Shown here: positions 556 to 36,784 of the stretch, one piece after another
Layout: every line of letters starts with the position of its first letter
Position numbering within the stretch: the stretch's first letter is position 1
Position numbers and translations under genes: made by a program
Notes under the pieces: model-generated
Told to the model about the DNA's origin: nothing
Database searches by the model: none
The model's input: only the letters and a program-made list of their open reading frames with translations
Source of the DNA: Acidimicrobiia bacterium
GTDB taxonomy: Bacteria > Actinomycetota > Acidimicrobiia > Acidimicrobiales > MedAcidi-G1
Length of the DNA stretch: 45,088 bases
Reading direction: 5' to 3'
Assembly (NCBI GenBank): GCA_012961035.1
Contig: DUAC01000020.1
Coordinates: 1-45,088, forward strand

Positions 556-1482
556 ATGGCCGGCCATCTGGCAGGAAAGAACATCGCCGTCACCGGTGCC
601 GGGAACGGGATCGGCCGGGGCATCGCCCTGGCCTGCGCCGCCGAGGGCGCCAAGGTCGTCGTCGCGGACTACGGGGTGACCATGGACGGCAGCGATCCGT
701 CCAGCGAGGTCGCCGACGTCGTGGTGGACGAGATCCGGGCGGCGGGTGGCACGGCCATAGCGGTGGCCGGTGACGTGTCGGAGATGGCGGTCGGACAGCG
801 CATCGTCGACACGGCGGTCCAGAACTGGGGGACCATCGACGGCGTGGTCTGCGTCGCCGGCATCGTGCGGGAACGGATGCTGTTCAACATGAGCGAGGAG
901 GAATTCGACCACGTGGTCGGCGTCCACCTGAAGGGCCACTTCACGCTCTACCGGGCCGCCTCGGCGGTCATGCGAAAGCAGGAGACGGGCGGCAGCCTGG
1001 TCGGGTTCACCTCCGGCGCCTTCGTGGCCTCGACGGCCCAGGCCAACTATTCGGCGGCCAAGGGCGGGATCGTGTCGCTCACCCGCAGCGCCGCCTTCGC
1101 CCTGCGGCGCTACGGCATCAACGCCAATTGCATCGCCCCGGCTGCGATGACCCGCATGTCGGAGAACGTGCCGTTCGAGATCGAGGCCGGCGGACCCGAG
1201 GCGATCGCCCCCCTGGCCGTCTACCTGCTCTCGGACGCCGCCCGGGATACGACGGCCCAGATCTACACCTGTACCGGGAAGCGGATCGCCGTCTGGAACC
1301 AGCCGGAGGAACTGCGGCACATGTCGGCCGACGACGGCGAGATGTTCACGGTGGACGAGATCGCCGAGAGGCTCCCGACCGCCATCGGCGCCGAGGAGAT
1401 GCCGATGTTCGCCGACCTGGAACGGCGCATGAAGGAGATGGCCGAGAGGAAGGCCGCCTCCGAGGCCGGCACGGCGTCCTAG
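556..1482 (+). CDS. SDR-family dehydrogenase with C-terminal extension, steroid-locus type
   Basis: This 308-residue protein starts with the Rossmann signature TGAGNGIG (residues 13-20) and carries Y165 and K169 (YSAAK) as the catalytic pair. It is about 50 residues longer than a minimal SDR. The tail contains a VDEIAERLP segment and a Lys/Glu-rich end. This longer SDR type, with an acidic loop after the second beta strand (VVADYGVTMDGSDP), resembles Rv3548c of the mycobacterial KstR2 regulon as I remember it; that assignment is inference. The ATG at 556 has a GGGAG ribosome site 6 nt upstream. ipdF follows 31 bp downstream. The substrate is probably a CoA-thioester intermediate of steroid ring C/D breakdown, but the sequence alone does not prove it. 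Confidence 0.85.
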   Translation: MAGHLAGKNIAVTGAGNGIGRGIALACAAEGAKVVVADYGVTMDGSDPSSEVADVVVDEIRAAGGTAIAVAGDVSEMAVGQRIVDTAVQNWGTIDGVVCVAGIVRERMLFNMSEEEFDHVVGVHLKGHFTLYRAASAVMRKQETGGSLVGFTSGAFVASTAQANYSAAKGGIVSLTRSAAFALRRYGINANCIAPAAMTRMSENVPFEIEAGGPEAIAPLAVYLLSDAARDTTAQIYTCTGKRIAVWNQPEELRHMSADDGEMFTVDEIAERLPTAIGAEEMPMFADLERRMKEMAERKAASEAGTAS

Positions 1483-1513
1483 CCGTCGCCGCCGAAGCGC
1501 CTACCCTCCTGCC

Positions 1514-2290
1514 ATGACCGCTCCCCCCTATGTCGAGGGCCACAGCCTGCTGGACGGCCGGATCGTGGTCGTCACCGCTGCGGCCGGCGCCGGCATCGGC
1601 TTCGCCGTAGCCAGGCGGGCGGTCGAGGAGGGCGCCACGGTCGTCATCTCGGATGTCCACGAGCGACGACTGGCCGAGGCTGCCGACGCGCTCGAGGCCA
1701 TGGCCGGGTCGAGGCCCCTCGCCCTGATCTGCGACGTCCGCCACGAGGCTGACGTGCAGGGCCTCATGGATGCCGCTGTGGCCCAGCACGGTCGAATCGA
1801 CGTGCTGGTCAACAACGCAGGCCTGGGTGGTGACACCCTCCTCGTGGACATGCCCGACGAGGAGTGGGACCGGGTGCTGGACATCACCCTCACCGGCACC
1901 ATGCGCTGCACCCGGGCGGCCCTGCGGATCATGGAGGCCCAGGGCCACGGGGTGATCGTGAACAACGCCTCGGTGGTCGGATGGCGGGCCCAGACAGGCC
2001 AGACCCACTACGCGGCGGCCAAGGCGGGCGTGATGGCCCTCACGCGCTGTTCCGCCATGGAGGCGGCCGGGTCCGGGATCCGGATCAACTGCGTGTCGCC
2101 GAGCCTCGCCATGCACCCGTTCCTGGCCAGGACCAGCAGCGATGAGCTGCTGGAGTCCCTGGTGGGTGGCGAGGCATTCGGCCGGGCCGCCGAGCCGTGG
2201 GAGGTTGCCAACGTGATCGTGTTCCTGGCCAGCGACTACTCGTCGTACATGACCGGCGAGGTCGTCTCGGTCTCCAGCCAGCACCCGTAG
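1514..2290 (+). CDS. ipdF: IpdF-like SDR, steroid ring C/D degradation
   Basis: The 258-residue SDR closely matches Mycobacterium IpdF (Rv3559c) as I recall it. It shares the unusual cofactor loop VVVTAAAGAGIG instead of the usual TGxxxGIG, a DVHERR segment, VNNASVVGWRAQ, catalytic Y166 and K170 in HYAAAKAGVMALTRCSA, GEAFGRAAEPWEVA, and the C-terminal DYSSYMTGEVVSVSSQHP. In the known pathway IpdF acts on the 5-hydroxy/5-oxo group of the HIP/HIC-CoA intermediates left after steroid rings A and B are removed. A TACCCT box at 1502-1507 lies 6 nt before the ATG, and no Shine-Dalgarno is visible, so a leaderless transcript is possible. It is convergent with the minus-strand hydrolase gene, 19 bp away. 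Confidence 0.87.
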   Translation: MTAPPYVEGHSLLDGRIVVVTAAAGAGIGFAVARRAVEEGATVVISDVHERRLAEAADALEAMAGSRPLALICDVRHEADVQGLMDAAVAQHGRIDVLVNNAGLGGDTLLVDMPDEEWDRVLDITLTGTMRCTRAALRIMEAQGHGVIVNNASVVGWRAQTGQTHYAAAKAGVMALTRCSAMEAAGSGIRINCVSPSLAMHPFLARTSSDELLESLVGGEAFGRAAEPWEVANVIVFLASDYSSYMTGEVVSVSSQHP

Positions 2291-2309
2291 TCGGACCCGT
2301 CAGGGTTCC

Positions 2310-3272
2310 TCAGGCCAGGCGCCAGTCGGCCTTCCAGTCCGATTCATCGCCGTCGGCGAGGCTCTCCACCCGACCCGCCCGCGACAGGGCCAGCAGGTGT
2401 GCGTACACGGAGGCTCCGGCGGCCATGTGCAGCTTCGGGTCGATGTCGGCGTAGAGCTCCTCCACGATCGAGATGATGCCGCGTGGGCCGCCGGCCAGGG
2501 CGTCCACGATCTGACGCTCCCGCATCCTGCGATGTTCGATGAGCGCCGTCACGTAGGGGATGGGATCGGTGATGGCCGGCCCGTGCGTCGGCCGGTAGGT
2601 CGTCTCAGGGCGGTCCAGGAGGCGTTCCAGGTTCTCCAGGTAGTCGTTCAGGTCACCGTCGGGAGCCGGGACCACCGAGGTGGACCAGCCCATGACGTGG
2701 TCGCCTGTGAACAGCGTGGCCTCCTCCCGGAAGGCGAAGCAGAGGTGGTTGGAGATGTGGCCCGGCGTGTGGAGCGCCTCGAAGGTGAAGCCCGCACCGG
2801 TGATCACGTCACCATCGGTGGTCACCACGTCGGGGACGAAGTCCCGGTCGCCCGATCCCTCACCGTCCTCGGACTCCGGTTCCTCGCCTGCCTCGATGGC
2901 GCGACGGACCCGCTCGTCATGCGCCCGGATGGCCTCGGCGGGGTGCGGGCCGAATCCGTGGGTGACCGCTCCCGTGGCCGCCTTCACGGCGGCCGCAGCG
3001 GGGGAGTGGTCGGGGTGGGTGTGGGTGATCAGCAGGTGGGTGACGCTCTGGCCCTCCACGGCCCGCAGTAGGGCGGACACGTGGTCGTCGTCGGCAGGGC
3101 CCGGGTCGATGATGGCGACGTCACCGCCGGTGGCCGGGCCGACGATGAACGTGCCCGAACCGTGGTAGGTGAACCTGGACGGGTTGTTGGCCACCACCCG
3201 ACGCACGAGGGGCGACAGTTGTTCCACCTCGCCGTAGGGCGGGGTCTCTTCGGTGCGGAACTCAGGGGCCAT
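2310..3272 (-). CDS. MBL-fold metallo-hydrolase (LACTB2-like)
   Basis: The protein has about 320 residues from the ATG at 3272, which has AGGA 7 nt upstream. Longer starts would run back into the sulfite reductase gene. The zinc-binding signature THTHPDHS, a later GDHVMGW aspartate and a THGP histidine define the metallo-beta-lactamase fold. An acidic insertion (EEPESEDGEGSGD) and a C-terminal helical, winged-helix-like region (QIVDALAGGPRG... VYAHLLALSRAGRV) match the LACTB2/hydroxyacylglutathione-hydrolase-like branch, which includes hydrolases and nucleases. It is the last gene of the minus-strand sulfur block, 61 bp after sulfite reductase. A link to sulfur metabolism, for example a persulfide or thioester hydrolase, is only positional. 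Confidence 0.85.
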   Translation of the reverse strand: MAPEFRTEETPPYGEVEQLSPLVRRVVANNPSRFTYHGSGTFIVGPATGGDVAIIDPGPADDDHVSALLRAVEGQSVTHLLITHTHPDHSPAAAAVKAATGAVTHGFGPHPAEAIRAHDERVRRAIEAGEEPESEDGEGSGDRDFVPDVVTTDGDVITGAGFTFEALHTPGHISNHLCFAFREEATLFTGDHVMGWSTSVVPAPDGDLNDYLENLERLLDRPETTYRPTHGPAITDPIPYVTALIEHRRMRERQIVDALAGGPRGIISIVEELYADIDPKLHMAAGASVYAHLLALSRAGRVESLADGDESDWKADWRLA

Positions 3273-31186: not shown

Positions 31187-31276
31187 GTGAGCACGCGCAT
31201 GTTGATCCTTTCGGCACTCGTCTGCGGGATGGGCCTACTGGTGGCCTTCACGGTCCAGGTGGTGATGGCGCCGTGA
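31187..31276 (+). CDS. 29-residue single-span membrane peptide coupled to lpd
   Basis: A GTG-started frame of 29 codons encodes four polar residues (MSTR), then a hydrophobic stretch of about 22 residues ([19 protein letters not shown] and on), ending VVMAP. It would span the membrane once. Its TGA overlaps the lpd GTG (GTGA), so it is read before lpd on the same message. I do not recognise it. It may be a real small membrane protein or a leader frame whose translation delivers ribosomes to lpd. The -10 box 7 nt upstream favours real translation. The single cysteine (VCGM) is the only reactive residue. Confidence 0.5.
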
Positions 31277-32676
31277 CAGTCCGGCACGACCTGGTGGTGG
31301 TTGGTGGCGGTCCGGCCGGCTACGCGGCGGCCCTCTACGGGGCGGCCTCCGGCCTGGACGTCGGCCTCGTCGAGGAGCGCAGCCTCGGCGGCACCTGCCT
31401 GCACGTGGGTTGCATACCGGCCAAGGAACTCCTGGAGACCGCCTCGGTGCTGCGCACCGTGCGCGATGCGGCCGGGTTCGGAGTGGTGACCGGCGGCGTC
31501 GAGCCGACCGTGGACCTGGCCGTCAGCCAGGTACGCAAGCAGAAGGTCATCGACGGCCTGGTCAAGGGACTCGGCTCGCTGCTGGCGGGGCGTGACGTCA
31601 CCGTCTACGACGGAACGGGACGCCTCGGGGTCGACCACGTGGTGACCGTCGACGGGCCGGATGGTCCGGTCGTGGTTGCGGCCGACCACGTGGTGCTGGC
31701 CACCGGCTCCACGCCGCGGACCATTCCGGGCTTCGACATCGACGGCTCCCTGGTGGTCACCAGCGACGAGTTGCTGTCCATCACCGAGGTTCCCGACCGT
31801 GTCGCGGTCATCGGGGGCGGAGCCATCGGATGCGAGTTCGCATCCATGCTGGCCGACTACGGATCGGCGGTCACCCTGCTGGAGGCCGCTACCGAGATCC
31901 TCCCGGGGTGTGACATCGACGTGGCCAAGACCGTCCGGCGTTCCTTCAGACGACGCCGCATCGACGTCCACTCAGGGGTGCCGGTCCACGGCCACGATCC
32001 CTCCGATGCAGCCACGACGGTCAGGTTCGGCGATGACTCCACGGTCGAGGTGGACCTCGTGGTGGTCGCCGTCGGACGTCGCCCCCGGGGCGACTCGGCC
32101 GGCCTGGTAGGGACCCGCGTGGTGGTCGACGAGAGGGGCTTCATCGGTGTCGACGACCGCCTCCGGACCGGCGAGCCGGGCGTCTACGCGGTGGGCGACG
32201 TCGTGCCCACCCCGCAGCTGGCCCATGTCGGCTTCGCCGAGGGGATGTTCGTGGTGAAGGACCTGCTGGGCGAGTCGCCGAGGCCGATCGACCCGACGAC
32301 CGTGCCGTGGTGCATCTACAGCCACCCCGAGGTGGCCTTCGCCGGGCTTACGGAGGCCGCGGCCATCGAGGCCGGCCACGACGTGGTGGTCAGCAGCCAC
32401 CGGTTCGCCGGCAACGGCAGGGCCATGATCATCGGCGACGTGGATGGTCTGGTGAAGGTCGTCGCCGCCAGGGACGCCGATGGGCGGGCGGGTCGCATCC
32501 TGGGCGTCCACATGGTCGGACCGTGGGTCACCGAACAACTCGGGCAGGCCTACCTGGCCGTCAACTGGGAGGCCACGGTGGACGAGGTGGCCGAGTTCAT
32601 CCAACCCCACCCGACGCTCAGCGAGCTGTTCGGCGAGACGGCCATGGCGCTCACCGGCCGAGCGCTCCACGGCTGA
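31273..32676 (+). CDS. lpd: Dihydrolipoamide dehydrogenase (E3)
   Basis: The protein has 467 residues from the GTG at 31273. FAD motif VVVGGGPAGYAAA, redox disulfide C42 and C47 in GGTCLHVGCIPAKEL, NAD motif VAVIGGGAIGCEFAS, second FAD motif GVYAVGDVVPTPQLAHVGFAEG, and the C-terminal HPTLSELFGE with the His-Glu pair are all present. Ala replaces the more usual Ser in CIPAK. It reoxidises dihydrolipoyl groups of 2-oxo-acid dehydrogenase complexes with NAD. The next two genes encode the E2 that carries the lipoyl group and the enzyme that makes the lipoyl group. Confidence 0.95.
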   Translation: MTVRHDLVVVGGGPAGYAAALYGAASGLDVGLVEERSLGGTCLHVGCIPAKELLETASVLRTVRDAAGFGVVTGGVEPTVDLAVSQVRKQKVIDGLVKGLGSLLAGRDVTVYDGTGRLGVDHVVTVDGPDGPVVVAADHVVLATGSTPRTIPGFDIDGSLVVTSDELLSITEVPDRVAVIGGGAIGCEFASMLADYGSAVTLLEAATEILPGCDIDVAKTVRRSFRRRRIDVHSGVPVHGHDPSDAATTVRFGDDSTVEVDLVVVAVGRRPRGDSAGLVGTRVVVDERGFIGVDDRLRTGEPGVYAVGDVVPTPQLAHVGFAEGMFVVKDLLGESPRPIDPTTVPWCIYSHPEVAFAGLTEAAAIEAGHDVVVSSHRFAGNGRAMIIGDVDGLVKVVAARDADGRAGRILGVHMVGPWVTEQLGQAYLAVNWEATVDEVAEFIQPHPTLSELFGETAMALTGRALHG

Positions 32677-32680
32677 TCCG

Positions 32681-33967
32681 ATGGCCGACGTCCTCCTCCC
32701 CCAGCTAGGCGAGACGGTCACCGAGGGCACCATCACACGCTGGTTCTTCGGCATCGGCGAGACGGTTCCGGCAGACGCCCCGCTCTACGAGGTCTCGACC
32801 GAGAAGGTCGACTCCGAGGTGCCGTCACCCCTGGGTGGGGTGCTGGTCGAGATCATCGCCTCCGAAGGGGCCACCATCCCCGTCGGAGCCCTCCTCTGCC
32901 GCATCGACCCCGACGACCCCTCCTCTACCTCTCCTCTGCCTACTCCTTCCGCCGTCGCCGGAGCCGGAGCCGGTGGCACGGGCTTGTCCACATCCGAACA
33001 GGGATCCGGTGTCCCTGCCGGTTCGGACGCCGTCGTAGCTTCAGCTGCGGCGGCCGGGCCGGCGGGGGCGACGGGGACCGGGGTGGAGCATCGAGGACGA
33101 GCCGGGGTGCGTCTGTTGTCTCCGGTGGTGAGGCGACTGTTGGCTGAGAATGGCCTGGACCCGGCGAGGGTTCGTGGGACCGGCCTGGGTGGCCGCCTGA
33201 CGCGTGGTGACGTGGAGACGTTCCTGCGCGACAACCCCGAGCGGGCCGAGCCGTTCAACGGCATCCGGAAGGCCACGGCCAGGCACATGGTCGGATCCAA
33301 GGCCACCTCCCCACACGTCCTGACCGCCATGGAGGTCGACTTCGATGCCGTGGACCGCCTGCGGTATGCGGAGAAGGACGCCTGGCGGGACGCCGAGGGA
33401 TCCAGCCTCACCTACCTGCCGTTCATCGTCGCCGCCCTGGCCGAGGCCCTGGCCGCCTTCCCCCGCCTCAACGCCAGCGTCGGCGACGACGAGCTGATCG
33501 TGCACGGTGACGTGAACCTGGCCGTCGCCGTGGACCTCGGGTTCGAGGGCCTGGTGGCGCCGGTCGTCCGCAAGGTGGGGGACCTGTCGATCCGGGACCT
33601 GGCCAGGTCCATCCACGAGGTGGCCGGTCGTGCCCGGGATCGCAGGCTCGTCCCCGACGACCTCTCCGGTGGGACCTTCACCGTCACCAACCCGGGCCAG
33701 TACGGCACGCTGTTCCAGTTCCCGATCATCAACCAGCCGCAGGTGGCGATCCTGTCCACCGACGGAATCGCCCGGAAGCCGGCAGTGGTCGTCGACGCAG
33801 ACGGTGTCGAGACCATCGGGGTCCGGCCCCTGGGCATCCTGGCCCTCGCCTGGGACCACCGTGCCTTCGACGGGGCGTACGCGGCGGCCTTCCTGCAGGA
33901 GCTGAAGCGGATCCTGGAGACCACCGACTGGGTCGGGCGCTGGGCCGACGAGGCCGACGGGGCGTGA
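32681..33967 (+). CDS. sucB: Dihydrolipoamide acyltransferase (E2) of a 2-oxo-acid dehydrogenase complex
   Basis: The protein has 428 residues from the ATG at 32681. One lipoyl domain (about residues 1-78) carries the lipoylated lysine K42 in STEKVDSEVPSP. An Ala/Gly/Pro/Ser-rich linker follows (~80-145), then the E1/E3-binding domain (RLLSPVVRRLLAENGLDPARV... GRLTRGDVETFL), then the catalytic domain with H393 and D397 in WDHRAFDG. This is the succinyltransferase/acetyltransferase layout. Mycobacterial-type actinobacteria use such an E2 for pyruvate dehydrogenase as well, so sucB versus a PDH E2 is not settled. No E1 gene is nearby. Stop overlaps the next GTG. Confidence 0.9.
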   Translation: MADVLLPQLGETVTEGTITRWFFGIGETVPADAPLYEVSTEKVDSEVPSPLGGVLVEIIASEGATIPVGALLCRIDPDDPSSTSPLPTPSAVAGAGAGGTGLSTSEQGSGVPAGSDAVVASAAAAGPAGATGTGVEHRGRAGVRLLSPVVRRLLAENGLDPARVRGTGLGGRLTRGDVETFLRDNPERAEPFNGIRKATARHMVGSKATSPHVLTAMEVDFDAVDRLRYAEKDAWRDAEGSSLTYLPFIVAALAEALAAFPRLNASVGDDELIVHGDVNLAVAVDLGFEGLVAPVVRKVGDLSIRDLARSIHEVAGRARDRRLVPDDLSGGTFTVTNPGQYGTLFQFPIINQPQVAILSTDGIARKPAVVVDADGVETIGVRPLGILALAWDHRAFDGAYAAAFLQELKRILETTDWVGRWADEADGA

Positions 33968-35631
33968 CCCCGGGTGGTGGCTCCCGGCCGTTCCGGACCA
34001 GGTGGCTGGGACGCGTCCGGTACCGCGACGCCCTGGCGTTGCAGCAACGCATGCACGCCCACGCCGGGTCGGTTTCCGAACCCCAGGACCACCTGCTGCT
34101 GCTCGAGCACCATGCGGTGTACACGCTCGGGGTGAGGGCCTCGATGGACAACCTGCTGCTGTCACCCGACGAGGTGGGAGCCGACCTCGTGCGTGCGGAT
34201 CGCGGCGGCGACATCACCTTCCACGGTCCCGGGCAGCTGGTCGGCTACCCGCTGCTCCACCTGCCCGGCAAGAGGGGCGGCGGCATGGCCGACACGGTGG
34301 CCTACGTGCGCTCCGTGGAGGACCTCGTCATGGACGTGTGCCGCGACCTGGGCCTCGTTGACGTGGGGCGCCTACGGCAGTTCCCGGGCGTGTGGGTGGA
34401 ACCCGATGGGCCCCGGCCCCGGAAGGTGGCGGCCATCGGGGTGAAGCTCACCCGGAGTCACACCATGCACGGCTTCGCCCTCAACGTGGACCCCGACATG
34501 GCTTTCTTCGACCGGATGGTGCCTTGCGGGATCACCGGCTACGGCGTCACCTCGCTGGCGGCCGAGGGGGTCGACGCCACCATGCGCCAGGTTGTCGACC
34601 TGGTGGCCGGGCATGCGGCCGAGCGCTGGGCCGACGGTCCGGTGGAGCGGGCCGATGTCGCCTGGGCGCACCGCACCGGGGACCTGAGTGCCTTCAGCCG
34701 TGGAGCGGGGGCGGGGGCCCGGCCGCCGGTGGGTCGCAAGCCGGAGTGGATGCGGGTGCCGCTGGAGACCGGTCCGGAGTACCTGCGCCTGAAGTCGACG
34801 ATGCGCTCGAAGCGTCTCACCACGGTCTGCGAGGAGGCGGGGTGCCCGAACGTGTTCGACTGCTGGAACGACGGCACGGCCACCTTCATGATCAACGGCG
34901 AGCGGTGCACCCGGGCCTGCGGCTTCTGCCTGGTCGACACCCGGCGCCCTGACGGCCTGGACCTGGACGAGCCCCGGCGGGTGGCCGAGGCCGTGGCCGA
35001 CATGGGCCTGCGCCATGCCGTGGTCACGGCGGTGGCCCGTGACGACCTGCCTGATGGCGGTGCGGCCGCCTTCGTGGCGACCATCGCCGCCATCCGGGAG
35101 CGGAACCCCGGGACCGCCGTGGAGGTGCTCATCCCCGACTGCAAGGGGGATCCCGACGCCCTCCAGCTCGTGTTCGATGCCCGACCGGAGGTGTTGAACC
35201 ACAACATCGAGACGGTGGCCCGCCTGCAACGCAGGGTCCGCCCGTCGGCCTCCTACGCACGCAGCCTCTCGGTGCTGGCCCGGGCCGGGTCTGCGGGCCT
35301 GACCACGAAGTCGTCGATCATCGTGGGCCTCGGGGAGACCGATGACGAGGTGGATGGCTGTCTGGCCGACCTGGCCGCCGTCGGCTGCGACATCGTCACG
35401 ATCGGCCAGTACCTGCGGCCCACCACCAGCCACCTGGAGGTGGATCGCTGGGTGGAACCTGCCACGTTCGACCGTTGGGCGGCGCTTGGTCTGGCGCTGG
35501 GGATCGGCCACGTGGAGGCCGGACCGCTCACGAGGTCCAGCTACCACGCAAGCCAGGCTGCCGACGCCGTGGGTGTCGCACCGGCGGTGGACCGGTCGGT
35601 GCAGGTGGCCCTCTTGGCCCGTCCGGCCTGA
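33964..35631 (+). CDS. lipB-lipA: LipB-LipA fusion: octanoyltransferase + lipoyl synthase
   Basis: One uninterrupted 555-codon frame encodes two enzymes. Residues 1 to about 225 are LipB: RGGDITFHGPGQLVGYPL, catalytic K154 in PRKVAAIGVKL and C188 in VPCGITGYGVTSL, which move octanoyl from acyl carrier protein to the target lysine. After a linker of roughly 40 residues (AGAGARPPVGRKPEWMRVP) comes LipA: auxiliary-cluster cysteines C289, C294, C300 (TVCEEAGCPNVFDC), radical-SAM cysteines C315, C319, C322 (CTRACGFC), and S525-S526 in TRSSYHA, which ligates the auxiliary cluster. LipA inserts two sulfur atoms. In most bacteria these are two genes. All catalytic residues are kept in both halves. 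GTG start overlaps the E2 stop. Confidence 0.93.
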   Translation: MTPGGGSRPFRTRWLGRVRYRDALALQQRMHAHAGSVSEPQDHLLLLEHHAVYTLGVRASMDNLLLSPDEVGADLVRADRGGDITFHGPGQLVGYPLLHLPGKRGGGMADTVAYVRSVEDLVMDVCRDLGLVDVGRLRQFPGVWVEPDGPRPRKVAAIGVKLTRSHTMHGFALNVDPDMAFFDRMVPCGITGYGVTSLAAEGVDATMRQVVDLVAGHAAERWADGPVERADVAWAHRTGDLSAFSRGAGAGARPPVGRKPEWMRVPLETGPEYLRLKSTMRSKRLTTVCEEAGCPNVFDCWNDGTATFMINGERCTRACGFCLVDTRRPDGLDLDEPRRVAEAVADMGLRHAVVTAVARDDLPDGGAAAFVATIAAIRERNPGTAVEVLIPDCKGDPDALQLVFDARPEVLNHNIETVARLQRRVRPSASYARSLSVLARAGSAGLTTKSSIIVGLGETDDEVDGCLADLAAVGCDIVTIGQYLRPTTSHLEVDRWVEPATFDRWAALGLALGIGHVEAGPLTRSSYHASQAADAVGVAPAVDRSVQVALLARPA

Positions 35632-35677: not shown

Positions 35678-36784
35678 GTGTTCAGCCAGCGCATCCAGAG
35701 GGCCCGGGAATCCATGGCCGACCTCGGGGTCGACGTCCTCCTCCTCTCGCTGGGCGCTGACCTGCCCTACTTCTGCGGCTACGAGGCCATGCCGTTGGAG
35801 CGCCTCACCATGCTGGTCGTGCCACGTGACGGCGACGTCCACCTGGTGGTTCCACACCTGGAGGCGCCCCGGGTCGTCGAACGCCCCGAGGTGTTCGAGA
35901 TGGTCACGTGGCGCGACGGTGAGGACCCGATCGCCCTGGTGGCTGATCTGGTGGGTGCCTCGACCACGGCGGCCATCGGGGACCAGACCTGGGCCGGTTT
36001 CGTGGTGGACCTGGTGGCGGCCTGCCCGGGACTGGGATTTCGCCGGGCGTCCGAGGTGACGGCGCCGATCCGGATGGTGAAGGACGACGCCGAGGTGGAG
36101 GCGCTGCGCCGGGCGGGTGCGGCGGTGGACCGCATCCTGGCCGATGTCCAGGCCGGCAACGTGGCCCTGGTCGGGAGGACGGAGGCCGATGTGGCGGCCC
36201 AGATCGGCCGGCGGATCCTGGACGAGGGCCACCACAGGGTGAACTTCGTGATCGTGGCCTCAGGACCCAATGCGGCCAGCCCCCACCACGAGTCCGGTGG
36301 GCGCGTCATCCGTGCGGGCGAGGGCGTGCTGTTCGACATCGGCGGCACCATGGCCGGGCCGGACGACGTCGGCTACTGCTCGGACATAACGCGCTGCGTG
36401 CACGTCGGCGAGCCCCCGGCCGGCTTCGCCGAGCTCTACTCGGTGCTGCACGACTCGCATGCGGCCGGCGTGGCGGCGGCCACGGTGGGCACGCCGTGCG
36501 AGGACGTGGACGCTGCGGCCCGGCGGGTCATCCAGGACGCCGGCTACGGGGAGTACTTCGTGCACCGGACGGGTCACGGCATCGGCGTGGAGGCCCATGA
36601 GCACCCCAACATCGTGGCCGGCAACGACCTGCCGCTGGTGGCCGGTCATGCCTTCTCGGTCGAGCCGGGCATCTACGTGCCGGATTCCTGGGGCGCCCGG
36701 CTGGAGGACATCGTGGTGGCCACCGTCGACGGGCCCGACGCCATGAACCGGATCGACCATGGCCTCGCCGTGGTCGACGGTTGA
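35678..36784 (+). CDS. M24-family metallopeptidase (Xaa-Pro dipeptidase/aminopeptidase-like)
   Basis: The 368-residue protein has an N-terminal creatinase-like domain (about 1-130) and a pita-bread catalytic domain. The five metal ligands are visible: D220 (LFDIGG), D236 (YCSDITR), H300 (RTGHGIGVEAHE), E329 (FSVEPGIYV), E343 (RLEDIVV). The family removes amino acids next to proline from short peptides in the cytoplasm. TAGCCT at 35666-35671 lies 6 nt before the GTG, so it may have its own leaderless transcript after the lipBA gene. A specific substrate cannot be named. Confidence 0.9.
   Translation: MFSQRIQRARESMADLGVDVLLLSLGADLPYFCGYEAMPLERLTMLVVPRDGDVHLVVPHLEAPRVVERPEVFEMVTWRDGEDPIALVADLVGASTTAAIGDQTWAGFVVDLVAACPGLGFRRASEVTAPIRMVKDDAEVEALRRAGAAVDRILADVQAGNVALVGRTEADVAAQIGRRILDEGHHRVNFVIVASGPNAASPHHESGGRVIRAGEGVLFDIGGTMAGPDDVGYCSDITRCVHVGEPPAGFAELYSVLHDSHAAGVAAATVGTPCEDVDAAARRVIQDAGYGEYFVHRTGHGIGVEAHEHPNIVAGNDLPLVAGHAFSVEPGIYVPDSWGARLEDIVVATVDGPDAMNRIDHGLAVVDG

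Follow-up and report, generated by a model that had tools for sequence, protein, structure and literature searches.

A LipB-LipA gene fusion conserved among inspected Acidimicrobiia genomes

INTRODUCTION

Octanoyltransferase (LipB, EC 2.3.1.181) and lipoyl synthase (LipA, EC 2.8.1.8) work consecutively on a single lysine. In the stretch of DNA analyzed here, a contig of 45,088 nucleotides from a member of the class Acidimicrobiia (hereafter the window), a sequence-only reading had described the two enzymes as a single polypeptide. This raises the question of whether such a fusion is genuine, how widely the class shares it, and whether having both enzymes on one chain could matter for the way a lipoyl domain is modified.

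RESULTS

LipB and LipA are encoded in one uninterrupted frame

The fused lipB-lipA gene occupies positions 33964..35631 of the + strand and comprises 555 codons plus a stop, with a GTG start and a TGA stop, inside a stop-to-stop frame of 706 amino acids. It is present as a single copy in its own genome. The claim of one continuous reading frame was borne out: between its GTG and its TGA, 33964-35631 runs without interruption through two complete domains, and the region where an interruption had been envisaged (34680-34770, in the linker) holds no in-frame stop. The same uninterrupted fusion was found in two named MAGs (L031 and L032, 94% and 95% identical to the window). This confirmed that the LipB-LipA fusion is real and conserved.

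Both halves retain their catalytic residues

The LipB half spans 33991..34623 (+, about residues 10-220), with a Pfam LplA-B_cat match at residues 20-215. It scored above the cut-offs of two NCBIfam LipB models (TIGR00214, 128.7 bits, cut-off 83.55; NF010925, 184.4 bits, cut-off 155), and matched NF010921, NF010922 and NF010923 under their own cut-offs. The Cys/Lys dyad and the RGG loop are present in the fused protein as C188 (34525-34527), K154 (34423-34425) and R80-G81-G82; the roles of the corresponding residues are given for Cys176/Lys142 of Mycobacterium tuberculosis LipB and its RGG loop in the available portion of PMC9307952, and those of the pocket in the available portion of PMC8639206. 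Among 50 of 1676 Foldseek matches, the LipB half was paired with M. tuberculosis LipB (1w66, 46% identity, rmsd 2.3).

The LipA half spans 34735..35559 (+, about residues 257/258-532), with Pfam matches to LIAS_N (258-294) and Radical_SAM (313-466), and exceeded the cut-offs of the NCBIfam LipA models TIGR00510 (341.6 bits, cut-off 310.25) and NF004019 (393.5 bits, cut-off 203). It contains the auxiliary-cluster cysteines C289, C294 and C300 (CX4CX5C), the radical-SAM cysteines C315, C319 and C322 (CX3CX2C) and the terminal motif R524-S525-S526-Y527, the cluster roles and the RSSY serine being treated for LIAS in the available portion of PMC12246082. Its counterpart among the same 50 of 1676 Foldseek matches was M. 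tuberculosis LipA (5exk, 56% identity, rmsd 1.4). The sequence-only reading had stated that every catalytic residue is kept, and K154, C188, the six cluster cysteines and the terminal serine were all located in the fused protein.

This retention extends to the class. We have collected 238 fused class loci, of which 215 (208 distinct sequences) were complete by our own criterion and 23 were omitted as incomplete. None of the 215 complete loci has lost K154, C188, R80-G81-G82, H87 or any of the six cluster cysteines, and S526 is retained in 214, with the remaining row ending at a contig edge.

AlphaFold2 models of the window protein (mean pLDDT 91.6 and pTM 0.92 over the whole chain) and of the fused protein from locus L019, which carries both linker elements described below (mean pLDDT 90.8, pTM 0.92), were each built on alignments of selected rows. 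The linker had a pLDDT of 75-87 in the window model, and only residues 227-233 were under 50 in L019. For a chain of two domains, so high a pTM suggests that the halves have a defined orientation to each other. No chain long enough for both halves was present among the 50 of 1676 Foldseek matches.

The linker carries a recurrent motif

The two halves are joined by 37 codons (residues 221-257, 34624..34734, +). Compared with the window, the linker of L031 has 2 non-synonymous and 6 synonymous codon differences (0/2/6 at codon positions 1/2/3) and that of L032 has 2 and 13 (0/2/13). Since these differences are mostly synonymous, the linker evolves as coding sequence. Five more distant relatives gave 9-13 non-synonymous versus 12-14 synonymous linker codons; this near-even ratio indicates that selection is weaker on the linker than on the domains. 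By our own definition of the linker, its length ranges from 4 to 111 residues, with a median of 39 (213 loci).

The alignment of class linkers revealed a common L-x-x-F-[ST]-R-G motif, which in the window reads D240-L-S-A-F244-S-R246-G (34681-34704, +). The phenylalanine is found in 88 and the arginine in 92 of 108 genus representatives, and in 180 and 165, respectively, of the 215 complete fused class loci. Alignment A1, in which F244 and R246 are conserved at 90% or more, consists of 76 rows plus the window picked by eye from the 108 representatives; several of the 32 left out have no motif, so that the unselected figures are those for the 108 genera and the 215 loci. The strict pattern L..F[STVAN]R matched 70/108 genera versus 0.7% of shuffled linkers. 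The looser F[STVANIQRK]R and F.R each matched 87/108, versus 11.8% and 22.6% of shuffled linkers, respectively, and because such loose patterns also arise by shuffling, the strict motif alone is a strong test. Even the loose form is missing in 21/108 genera, which indicates that the motif is dispensable. The linker motif occurred in 0/20 LipB tails from outside the class, one of the 20 being the fusion L105 described below.

A second linker element resembling RLLGRLAEAGV is present in 61/108 genera versus 1.4% of shuffles, and was absent from all four genera examined in the family of the window.

The fused gene lies next to genes for an E2 and an E3

Directly upstream of the fused gene lies a gene for a 2-oxoacid dehydrogenase E2 (32681..33967, +) with a single lipoyl domain (residues 4-75) and with E3-binding and catalytic domains, whose best NCBIfam model was SucB_Actino, with a score below the cut-off. 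Its TGA stop overlaps the GTG start of the fused gene as GTGA. A dihydrolipoyl dehydrogenase (E3) gene at 31264..32676 (+, start approximate) scored above the TIGR01350 cut-off.

Among the 37 fused named loci, an E3 match lies upstream in 30, and a same-strand E2 ends at most 150 bases before the LipB match in 32 (within about 30 bases in 31). In two loci the E2 gene is more distant, by 391 bases in L055 and by 171 bases in L060, whose LipB match has a late start, and three close relatives among these 37 loci (L033-L035) have no detected E2 gene ahead of the fused gene. In L035, a dihydrolipoyl dehydrogenase gene directly precedes the fused gene. Outside the class, E2 also stands directly before lipB in L129 and L132 (order E2-lipB-lipA), a gene order that therefore probably predates the fusion.

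The likely lipoylation acceptors found in the window's own genome, which is 94% complete, are the upstream E2 and a GcvH on contig C153. The other three Biotin_lipoyl matches belong to genes of biotin-dependent carboxylases or are adjacent to such genes. Just downstream of the fused gene we have observed an Xaa-Pro peptidase-like gene (35678-36784, +), which is adjacent in many close relatives too.

Nearly all inspected Acidimicrobiia genomes carry the fusion

The class search gave matches in 364 of 395 Acidimicrobiia genomes and none in 31. We have inspected the DNA of 208 of the 364 by running the profiles of LipB and LipA against stop-to-stop frames; this sample was deliberately over-weighted to genomes with two matches or with a stop inside the match. 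The profile survey, which the sequence-only reading had proposed, placed both matches in one stop-to-stop frame in 201/208 genomes from 50 family groups, including some that are partial at a contig end, one with a stop inside LipB (G356) and two in which part of LipA is missing from the fused frame or shifted (G107 and G242). Many of the remaining 156 matched genomes have, according to the match table only, one match across both halves with no stop. The fusion is thus the rule among the inspected Acidimicrobiia genomes rather than a local oddity.

Seven of the 208 genomes are unfused as assembled. The locus is cut by contig ends in four of them (G103, G200, G221 and G234). In G191 (6% contamination), LipA lies at a contig start and the LipB frame stops on another contig, and in G215 the frames overlap and switch where LipA begins. 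G092 (locus L265, 85% complete) yielded LipB and no LipA, possibly through loss, incompleteness or a real split. Named loci, which come partly from the same genomes as the 208, are fused in 37/39 cases, and one of the two others (L068) begins at a contig end. The second, L066 (about 486-2439), from a named MAG of the Sva0996 marine group, has LipB and LipA complete in overlapping, different frames that change in the linker, which may reflect an assembly error or a true split.

Two shortcuts for scoring fusions were discarded. Reading two matches per genome as separate genes was rejected after direct inspection of the stop-to-stop ORFs. Taking an equal open-frame value for both halves as a fusion was also rejected, because this value reads through stops; G568 has a value of 557 for both halves and yet two frames.

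Outside the class, all but one of the inspected actinomycete genomes are unfused

The phylum sample comprised 396 genomes, 325 of them with a match, and 65 genomes from outside the class were looked at closer. The statement that the two genes are separate in most bacteria agreed with the data: so they are in Escherichia coli K-12, and 31/32 actinomycete genomes from outside the class with DNA inspected are unfused. The exception (L105/L289; genome G717, family f115) matches both LplA-B_cat and Radical_SAM within a frame of 712 codons. It keeps the catalytic residues, its linker has no class motif, and both a genus-mate (G696, separate frames) and a family-mate (G723) are unfused. In another genome (G697, locus L104, about 1417-3234), only one TGA interrupts the frame shared by lipB and lipA, which are thus one codon away from a fusion.

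The tree that we have built has 67 rows, of which 47 are class families, 19 are separate and one is L105. The fused/separate label required 2 changes on it versus a shuffled mean of 16.9, and none of 500 shuffles was as low; 24/64 inner branches of this tree are open, and the branch of L105 is long. The simplest reading of these sequences would be a single fusion event in the class and another in f115, L105 being apparently an independent LipB-LipA fusion.

A plasmid collection gave 214 matched records; among 60 of the 214 matches listed, six had one place that spans 80% or more of the query, and in all six the match was split in two.

DISCUSSION

Relation to known systems

The fused protein shares with the separate LipB and LipA of E. 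coli K-12 both families, the Cys/Lys dyad, the RGG loop, the CX4CX5C and CX3CX2C motifs and the RSSY end. The difference lies in the arrangement, one polypeptide here and two genes there, lipA and lipB being separated by ybeF. The NCBIfam family NF053790 (LplA_LipA_fuse, bifunctional lipoate--protein ligase/lipoyl synthase) is similar by name and profile positions, in that an attaching domain is followed by LipA. However, the fused protein scored 354.3 bits against the cut-off of 800 of that model and aligned over residues 253-531 only, and its first half is of the LipB type. The LplA-B catalytic fold of this first half also recalls the bipartite or fused LplA-LplB lipoate ligases, in which, according to the available portion of PMC10332631, the partner is the accessory domain LplB and not LipA.

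The existence of the NCBIfam LplA-LipA family means that LipA joined to an attaching enzyme is already a known kind of protein. Our literature search, which covered titles and the starts of abstracts, with subscription journals thinly represented, returned no description of a LipB-LipA fusion, and the available portions of PMC10332631, PMC3917532, PMC9307952, PMC12246082, PMC6067878 and PMC8639206 do not describe one. Within this literature, the fusion represents a variant, apparently undescribed, of a pathway that is itself known; databases may well contain automatic annotations of such proteins.

Proposed function and alternative explanations

We consider it highly probable that the fused gene encodes a single bifunctional octanoyltransferase/lipoyl synthase, which would be made beside its likely substrate; both activities are probably present, judging from the intact families and from what is known of them. 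In the LipB half, C188, partnered by K154, would accept the octanoyl group of octanoyl-ACP, which would then be passed to a lipoyl-domain lysine. The LipA half would next introduce one sulfur at C6 and another at C8, with the help of SAM and its pair of [4Fe-4S] clusters. As acceptors, the E2 encoded immediately upstream and the GcvH encoded elsewhere in the genome are likely.

That both sites act on one lipoyl domain with no release in between is speculative, and we hold it to be rather unlikely, even if direct hand-over is made somewhat likelier by the E2 linkage, by the confident model and by the recurrence of the linker motif. More doubtful still is its fullest form, a class-defining lipoyl-assembly machine in which the linker (LxxF[ST]RG, often followed by the RLLGRLAEAGV-like element) would orient both sites to one docked lipoyl domain, so that transfer and sulfur insertion would take place beside E2 without release.

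The alternative that deserves most weight accepts a bifunctional protein and denies only its benefit: a stop would have been lost once in the class ancestor, and the fusion, selectively neutral, simply inherited. The E2-lipB-lipA order of L129 and L132 and the single TGA in L104 imply that the fusion was a small step, and the 21/108 genera without even the loose motif fit this reading as well. If the fusion were neutral, though, its loss should be easy, and yet 201/208 genomes across 50 families stay fused, the candidates for re-splitting being only G215, G092, G191 and the named locus L066; the recurrence of the linker motif and the apparent second fusion in L105 also speak against neutrality. 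Neutral inheritance thus remains a serious contender, held to be short of probable.

It is improbable that the gene gives two proteins, through cleavage of the linker or an internal LipA start, and that the fusion serves only for equal dosage. In-frame starts do exist at the LipA boundary (GTG 34729 and ATG 34750), a GGAG ends three bases before the ATG, and the linker length is variable (4 to 111 residues). However, the GGAG is closer to the ATG than usual and belongs to conserved PEW codons, synonymous changes prevail in the linkers of the two nearest relatives (though the ratio is about even in the five more distant), the motif recurs (88 of 108 genera with the F, 92 with the R), and the linker has a pLDDT of 75-87 in the window model and, outside residues 227-233, is not under 50 in L019. 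An assembly or sequencing artefact, in which a lost stop or a frameshift joined neighboring genes, has a next to negligible probability. The window does come from an assembly of 212 contigs, but the same open fusion in the 201/208 class genomes and the 37/39 named loci (overlapping sets), including the single-contig G157 and G002, rules this reading out, and the linker substitutions in the nearest relatives are codon-like.

A class that keeps LipB and LipA on one chain offers natural constructs for testing the direct passing of an octanoylated lipoyl domain, and the fusion may ease structural work on LipB, the lipoyl domain and LipA together. Together with the linker motif, it looks like a candidate marker of Acidimicrobiia. 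The known chemistry is unchanged by the fusion, and the significance would be moderate unless channelling is shown.

As a minor observation, contig C57 of the window's own genome contains a contig-truncated, lipoate-protein-ligase-like frame (L285) with a weak LplA-B_cat match (45 bits), possibly a lipoate salvage enzyme.
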